From Propionibacteriales bacterium (GTDB lineage: Bacteria > Actinomycetota > Actinomycetes > Propionibacteriales > Nocardioidaceae): DNA of 64,000 nt. A program made the position numbers and the translations under genes. This document shows positions 6,659-7,416 of the stretch, piece by piece; within the stretch, counting starts at the first letter, position 1; every line of letters begins with the position of its first letter. The notes under the pieces are model-generated. The model had not been told where the DNA came from and did not search any database. It worked only from the letters and a program-made list of their open reading frames with translations. The stretch covers positions 124,001 to 188,000 of the forward strand of contig JAPLCB010000011.1 of NCBI GenBank assembly GCA_026392455.1, read 5' to 3'.

Positions 6659-6816
6659 CTGCAGATGGCACCCCGGGTAGTGGGGGCACGTTCCAGTAGA
6701 TCGGCCGTCGTGGCCCGTTCCTGACCTCTCCCCCGGGAAATGTGAGTCAGCGCACCTGGTTGACCTGGGTCACACCAGACCCGAAAAGGGCCTCTGACCT
6801 GCGGTAATCACATCAG

Positions 6817-6890
6817 TGCCCCGGGTGGGGTTCGAACCCACACTGAACGGTTTTTAAGACCGCTTCCTCTGCCGGTTGGGATACCGGGGC
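6817..6890 (-). tRNA. tRNA with anticodon UAA (Leu codon UUA), class I fold
   Basis: A 74-nt cloverleaf: 7-bp acceptor GCCCCGG/CCGGGGC, D arm with GG in the loop, anticodon stem GCGGT/ACCGT with loop CTTAAAA, a 5-nt variable loop TCAGT, T arm GTGGG-TTCGAAC-CCCAC, and discriminator A. No CCA is encoded. The anticodon reads UUA, a leucine codon, but bacterial tRNA-Leu normally has a long variable arm (class II). The amino acid is therefore uncertain. It lies just downstream of def on the same strand. Confidence 0.85.
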
Positions 6891-6903
6891 GCGAGGGGAT
6901 CGA

Positions 6904-7416
6904 TCATAAGTAGGTCTTGCGCGCGTGCAGCGCGTGCGCGTCCGCGACCCGGTCGAGGAAGAGCAGCCCGTCGCAGTGGTCGATCTCGTGCTGCAACGCC
7001 CGAGCCTCGAAGGCATCGGTCTCGATGACGACCTCGGCACCGGTCCCCGGCTCCTGGCCGCGCACGACGAGCCGGGAGGCGCGCTTCACGTCTCCGGTCA
7101 GGTCCGGGACGCTCATGCAGCCCTCGCGCGCCTTCTCGTTGCGCGACGCGCTGACCACCTCGGCGTTGCAGAGCACGAAGGTCCCGTGCTTCGTCCGGGC
7201 CTTGGGGTGCTCGGAGACGTCGACGCAGAAGACCTTGACGCTGACCCCGACCTGCGGCGCGGCCAGACCGACGCAGCCGGGCGAGACCCGCATCGTGGCC
7301 ACCAGGTCCGCCGCGAGCTGCACGATCTCCGGGTCGGTGGGATCGACGACCGCACCCGGCTTCGACAGCACCTGGGCCGGCGCGCGGACGACCTCGAGGA
7401 CCTTCCCGACGATCAC
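6904..7416 (-). CDS. def: peptide deformylase
   Basis: 170 aa. It removes the formyl group from the N-terminal methionine of new proteins. The three family motifs are present: GCVGLAAPQVG (GxGxAAPQ type), EGCMSVP with metal ligand C100, and QHEIDH with H143, E144 and H147. The start is GTG at 7416, which overlaps the stop of the upstream ACT-domain gene by 4 nt (GTGA), so the pair is translationally coupled. The tRNA follows 13 bp after the stop. Length and motifs are normal. EGCMS in place of EGCLS is a common actinobacterial variation of this loop. Confidence 0.96.
   Translation of the reverse strand: MIVGKVLEVVRAPAQVLSKPGAVVDPTDPEIVQLAADLVATMRVSPGCVGLAAPQVGVSVKVFCVDVSEHPKARTKHGTFVLCNAEVVSASRNEKAREGCMSVPDLTGDVKRASRLVVRGQEPGTGAEVVIETDAFEARALQHEIDHCDGLLFLDRVADAHALHARKTYL

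Follow-up and report, generated by a model that had tools for sequence, protein, structure and literature searches.

The window analysed here, a 64,000-nt stretch of a Propionibacteriales genome, contains a single tRNA gene, which ARAGORN calls as tRNA-Leu(taa) at 6816-6890 on the minus strand and which Rfam family RF00005 matches over its full length (6817-6890, minus strand, 55.1 bits, E 4e-9). The gene (6817..6890, minus strand) is 74 nt long including the discriminator A and is conserved in relatives. Written as RNA, it reads GCCCCGG UA UCC CAACCGGCAGA GGA A GCGGU CUUAAAA ACCGU UCAGU GUGGG UUCGAAC CCCAC CCGGGGC A, giving a 7-bp acceptor stem (GCCCCGG/CCGGGGC), a 5-bp anticodon stem (GCGGT/ACCGT) and a 5-bp T-stem (GTGGG/CCCAC). 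The anticodon TAA (6854..6856, minus strand) lies in the 7-nt loop CTTAAAA, with ARAGORN placing it at position 35 of its call, and the variable loop TCAGT (6842..6846, minus strand) measures 5 nt, its last base being the equivalent of U48. The D-arm, TCC-CAACCGGCAGA-GGA (6865..6881, minus strand), has a 3-bp stem and an 11-nt loop with the motif AA..GG.AGA, and is of the tRNA-Leu type. The discriminator base A73 (6817, minus strand), the main leucine identity element, is also an A in the relatives that BLAST found without the use of any pattern. The bases 3' of the discriminator are CTG, so CCA is not encoded in this gene; it is encoded in some relatives' copies and is absent from many other tRNA genes of the host genome too. 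In a single-strand fold the D-arm is absent from the centroid structure, and the Rfam score is below that of most tRNAs of the genome. Upstream on the same strand lies def (6904..7416, minus strand), a peptide deformylase gene by its matches to deformylases in the PDB, which ends TTA TGA 13 nt before the tRNA. A TATGAT hexamer (6903..6908, minus strand) overlaps this last codon (TTA) and the stop (TGA) and, judging from its conservation upstream of the tRNA, is the probable -10 box of the tRNA gene. An earlier note on this DNA had described a complete class I cloverleaf with a UAA anticodon, a 5-nt variable loop and no CCA, positioned beside def, and all of these features are borne out by ARAGORN, Rfam, the deformylase matches and our own reading of the sequence.

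The host genome is a 3.55-Mb assembly in 11 contigs that is 100% complete. It gives 44 tRNA matches, all above the Rfam cut-off, and reading all 44 revealed exactly one UAA tRNA, that of the window. A pattern for class II UAA tRNAs had no match anywhere in the host genome, so the check for a class II tRNA-Leu(UAA) elsewhere, which the earlier note had proposed, found none. Using ARAGORN on the fetched loci, we identified five tRNA-Leu genes, comprising the class I tRNA-Leu(UAA) of the window (6817-6890, minus strand), class I tRNA-Leu(CAA) (contig C2, position 273504), class I tRNA-Leu(UAG) (C3, 53896), class II tRNA-Leu(CAG) (C7, 119538) and class II tRNA-Leu(GAG) (C3, 749428). Because all tRNAs of the genome were read and only one has a UAA anticodon, the window tRNA is the only dedicated UUA reader, and three of the five leucine isoacceptors are short-armed. 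The earlier note was thus right that this gene departs from the textbook form of tRNA-Leu; its premise that bacterial tRNA-Leu is class II is wrong in this lineage. The genome has a single leucyl-tRNA synthetase (LeuRS) above the cut-off, an 849-aa frame scoring 903 bits. Elsewhere in the genome, a tRNA-Gln(UUG) (C8, 348094-348172) has an unusual 9-nt variable loop according to ARAGORN and the lowest tRNA score of the genome, 40.1 bits.

A BLAST-type search of the host and its relatives recovered a matching gene or a close relative of it in 36 of 39 genomes. Across 196 sampled genomes of the taxonomic class, a strict pattern for the 3' half of the molecule found class I tRNA-Leu(UAA) in 106, and a class II UAA pattern matched in 52, about 47 of which were left after the matches had been read for a paired T-stem; by these patterns, no genome among the 196 carries both. 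We re-searched the 43 genomes with neither UAA pattern using a relaxed pattern, and 28 of them also with a class II query, finding class II Leu(CAA) in several and, in one (genome G064), a class I Leu(UAA) that the strict pattern had missed, its 3' end being GGGGGTA with U72. The class I UAA pattern also extends beyond the class to several families in the rest of the phylum. In all 103 distinct class I UAA tRNAs the 13 pairs of the D-, anticodon and T-stems are complementary, and compensatory pairs occur with up to five pair types per stem position, indicating that the stem structure of class I tRNA-Leu(UAA) is under selection; most of these sequences were chosen by patterns that fix C72, A73 and G53-C61, and those positions were not counted as evidence. 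The 3-bp D-stem is present in 103 of 103 sequences, a U before the T-stem in 102 and the loop motif AA..GG.AG in 101. Most other class I tRNAs of the host genome have a 4-bp D-stem, the exceptions among those listed being Cys and Phe.

Only 2 of the 17,383 codons in the window are TTA, one of them the last codon of def, and to learn what UUA means we therefore turned to lower-GC relatives, aligning the IMPDH sequences of 15 such members of the class, each with a class I UAA tRNA as the only one found. In the 21 IMPDH columns that hold TTA, 198 of the 234 other cells contain leucine codons, and the remainder encode Ile or Val. Relative to Bacillus anthracis and Thermotoga maritima, the residues aligned with TTA are spread much like those aligned with CTT and CTC, with Leu the commonest or joint commonest. 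For UUG, the TTG codons of the window's own IMPDH, which in this host are the task of class I tRNAs, gave 11 comparisons, and in 8 of them the aligned residue is Leu. From these sequence comparisons we conclude that UUA and UUG mean leucine. Alignments of Mfd and enolase were left out of this comparison, since most of the sequences in them are from mycobacteria, which probably have this tRNA type themselves, as was an MmpL-like match that was too distant; a UAG-tRNA pattern run on the lower-GC relatives gave nothing useful. At about 380 aa, the IMPDH proteins of these lower-GC genomes are without the query region of about 100-231, where CBS domains are expected.

We consider it highly probable (roughly 93%) that the window tRNA works in elongation as a tRNA-Leu for UUA codons and is charged by the LeuRS of the genome without a long arm. 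This reading builds on direct observation of the gene, its structure, its conservation and its position as the sole UAA tRNA, and on the codon meaning established by comparison. The tRNA has the features expected of a tRNA-Leu, namely a leucine anticodon (NAG, UAA or CAA), A73, A14, A15-U48, G18G19 and an A20a-type D-loop with a 3-bp D-stem. Class II tRNAs have a long variable arm of more than 10 nt folded as a stem-loop, and the variable loop of the window tRNA has 5 nt; it is a tRNA-Leu, yet not a class II tRNA. For E. coli LeuRS, A73, the A15-U48 pair, G18G19 and A20a are important (summarized in PMC9976931), and the D-arm, the U before the T-stem and the discriminator A of the window tRNA match these published determinants, which supports its leucine identity. 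In E. coli, leucylation does not correlate with either the sequence or the fold of the long arm, and a truncated tRNA-Leu without the arm is still active (PMC9976931).

In the proposed mechanism, transcription would start from the -10 box that overlaps the end of def, and CCA would be added after transcription. The tRNA would read UUA and could wobble to UUG. It would keep the parts that LeuRS recognizes (A73, A14, A15-U48, the G18-G19/A20a arrangement of the D-loop and the 3-bp D-stem), so that one ordinary bacterial LeuRS would charge it together with the two other class I and the two class II tRNA-Leu. The genetic code is unchanged. More broadly, the window tRNA belongs to a short-armed tRNA-Leu type that very probably decodes UUA across much of the class and UUG in a good many genomes of the class, among them some that keep a class II UAA tRNA.

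The earlier note had raised the possibility that the tRNA takes no part in normal decoding, and had pointed to the Streptomyces bldA tRNA as a developmental regulator. On such a view the tRNA would regulate rare genes that contain UUA, much as bldA does, or be a non-decoding RNA. The extreme rarity of UUA in the window fits such a role, as does def, which ends in UUA in many relatives. Lower-GC relatives, however, carry the same class of tRNA and make free use of UUA, and the TATGAT box is a better explanation for the UUA that closes def. Of 18 loci, 12 have this hexamer in the 60 nt preceding the tRNA, where 0.006 occurrences per 60 nt would be expected, and its total in the 116,640 strand-bases of the 18 loci is 12, with 12 loci having the box at this place. 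In 27 loci, some of them from distant families, def precedes class I tRNA-Leu(UAA) on the same strand, and in the host's genus it frequently ends TTA TGA; TATGAT is kept at loci with a different upstream gene. A sigma-70 scan found no full promoter, and no good -35 hexamer is visible. TATGAT is probably the -10 box of the tRNA gene, on the strength of its positional conservation, and this is a simpler reading than a regulatory link to def. We had considered autoregulation of def through its terminal UUA, since a codon as rare as TTA closes the gene in many relatives, and dropped the idea because TATGAT accounts for the TTA better and persists where the upstream gene differs. The comparison with bldA also does not carry over, since bldA-type tRNAs are class II and take the place of the window's type in other genomes. 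Should the tRNA influence rare genes with UUA codons in this GC-rich host, it would do so through decoding. We therefore regard a role outside decoding as very improbable.

Still less likely, in our estimation, is that a UAA anticodon sits on another class I body (for example Lys, Asn or Trp) and that the corresponding amino acid is inserted at UUA, as with allo-tRNAs and tRNA-ProX; the earlier note had likewise suggested charging with another amino acid. The class I body is what such a missense tRNA would show, and sequence similarity offers it some room. Among the tRNAs of the genome, class I Leu(CAA) resembles the window tRNA most closely outside the variable region (85% identity); Lys(UUU) comes next at 72.5%, slightly over Leu(UAG) at 70.1%, so overall similarity alone cannot fix the isotype. 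The D-arm, however, is of the leucine type, with 3 bp and a long loop, in contrast to the 4-bp arms of the Lys, Asn and Trp tRNAs, and LysRS, AsnRS and TrpRS depend on the anticodon of their tRNAs, which further argues against this reading. The same holds for the nearest relative being a leucine tRNA, for the window tRNA being the genome's only UAA tRNA, and for the leucine codons that fill the UUA columns in relatives. Codon exchange and the leucine-type D-arm led us to reject the missense reading, and the tRNA is widely conserved as a known type, the outcome that the earlier note had named as speaking against its own interpretation. That the gene is a pseudogene or an assembly artefact, with the true UUA decoder elsewhere, is extremely improbable. 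The absence of an encoded CCA and the comparatively low Rfam score would fit this, but the gene is conserved and covarying, the 100%-complete genome has no second UAA tRNA, and many other tRNA genes there lack CCA too.

As a leucine tRNA without the long arm, the window tRNA can be set beside several known systems. With E. coli tRNA-Leu and Streptomyces bldA, both class II, it shares the leucine-type D-arm with its 3-bp stem, A15-U48, G18G19, A73 and the reading of leucine codons, and charging by LeuRS would be common to them as well; the difference lies in the variable arm, which has about 12 nt or more in class II tRNA-Leu and 5 nt here. Unlike a genome with a bldA-type tRNA, the host has as its one UAA tRNA a class I molecule. 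A developmental tRNA of the bldA type further goes with UUA codons limited to auxiliary genes and with a tRNA level that depends on the stage. Animal mitochondrial tRNA-Leu(UUR) is likewise class I, reads UUR codons and is leucylated without a long arm (PMC9976931), whereas the window gene is chromosomal and bacterial, would be served by a bacterial LeuRS, has fully paired arms and is probably of independent origin. Mobile tRNA arrays and phages contain class I Leu tRNAs with leucine-type D-arms like that of the window; there, short-loop tRNA-Leu are accessory copies, whereas the host genome has no UAA, CAA or UAG tRNAs other than the short forms. An unusual pairing of body and anticodon is shared with allo-tRNAs and tRNA-ProX. 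Allo-tRNAs, however, have an 8/4 or 9/3 acceptor branch, as opposed to the 7-bp acceptor stem and 5-bp T-stem seen here, and the window tRNA differs from both groups in having a leucine-type body, a leucine anticodon and no dual identity.

A 2023 review names animal mitochondria as the sole exception to the long arm of tRNA-Leu (PMC9976931). Other articles bear on mycobacterial tRNA-Leu. In PMC11541572, tRNA-Leu-2, -3 and -5 of Mycobacterium tuberculosis are listed as those with a long variable loop; by implication the remaining M. tuberculosis tRNA-Leu are short-armed, although the relevant passages neither state nor discuss this. A mycobacterial tRNA array contains one short-loop tRNA-Leu(TAG), with the long form called normal (PMC6582537), and some mycobacteriophages integrate into the host tRNA-Leu-CAA gene, one of them bringing its own copy (PMC10865867). 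In the literature searched, which covered few of the subscription journals, we found no paper describing a class-wide pattern of short-armed tRNA-Leu. The pattern thus appears to be a widespread exception to a textbook rule, hinted at and, in that literature, without description.

The exception is not confined to UAA tRNAs. A class I Leu(CAA), too, is frequent among genomes of the class, and in a genus with 6-11 Mb genomes, very probably Streptomyces, it occurs beside a class II bldA-like UAA tRNA in the same genomes. A large share of one bacterial class breaks the long-arm rule with chromosomal, often sole, isoacceptors, and mycobacteria and streptomycetes very probably belong to this group. 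A GTDB-wide search returned 110 stretches, mostly from actinobacteria by title, with a pattern that catches one variable-loop length only; many of the matches outside the phylum (Elusimicrobia, Acidobacteria, Bradyrhizobium) are in dense tRNA arrays. Short-armed, annotated tRNA-Leu also occur in phages of Mycobacterium, Rhodococcus and Lactobacillus. We tentatively suggest, as a possibility we hold to be the less likely case, that short-armed tRNA-Leu form a distinct lineage common to actinobacterial chromosomes, phages and mobile arrays, which might on several occasions have taken over from class II isoacceptors, in this genome for UAA, CAA and UAG. A possible reason would be that a leucine tRNA lacking the long arm escapes enzymes that grip it, such as SerRS or tRNA-targeting toxins.

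The interest of the window tRNA lies in an exception to a textbook rule and not in an altered code. With it, LeuRS recognition in the absence of the long arm can be tested on a natural molecule, and it bears on toxins and modification enzymes that select tRNAs by their variable arm. Where isotype models or tRNA-seq pipelines expect a long arm in tRNA-Leu, the short forms may be misassigned. In the dense tRNA arrays, most of which lie outside Actinomycetota, short-armed tRNA-Leu often occur with several leucine anticodons on one contig.
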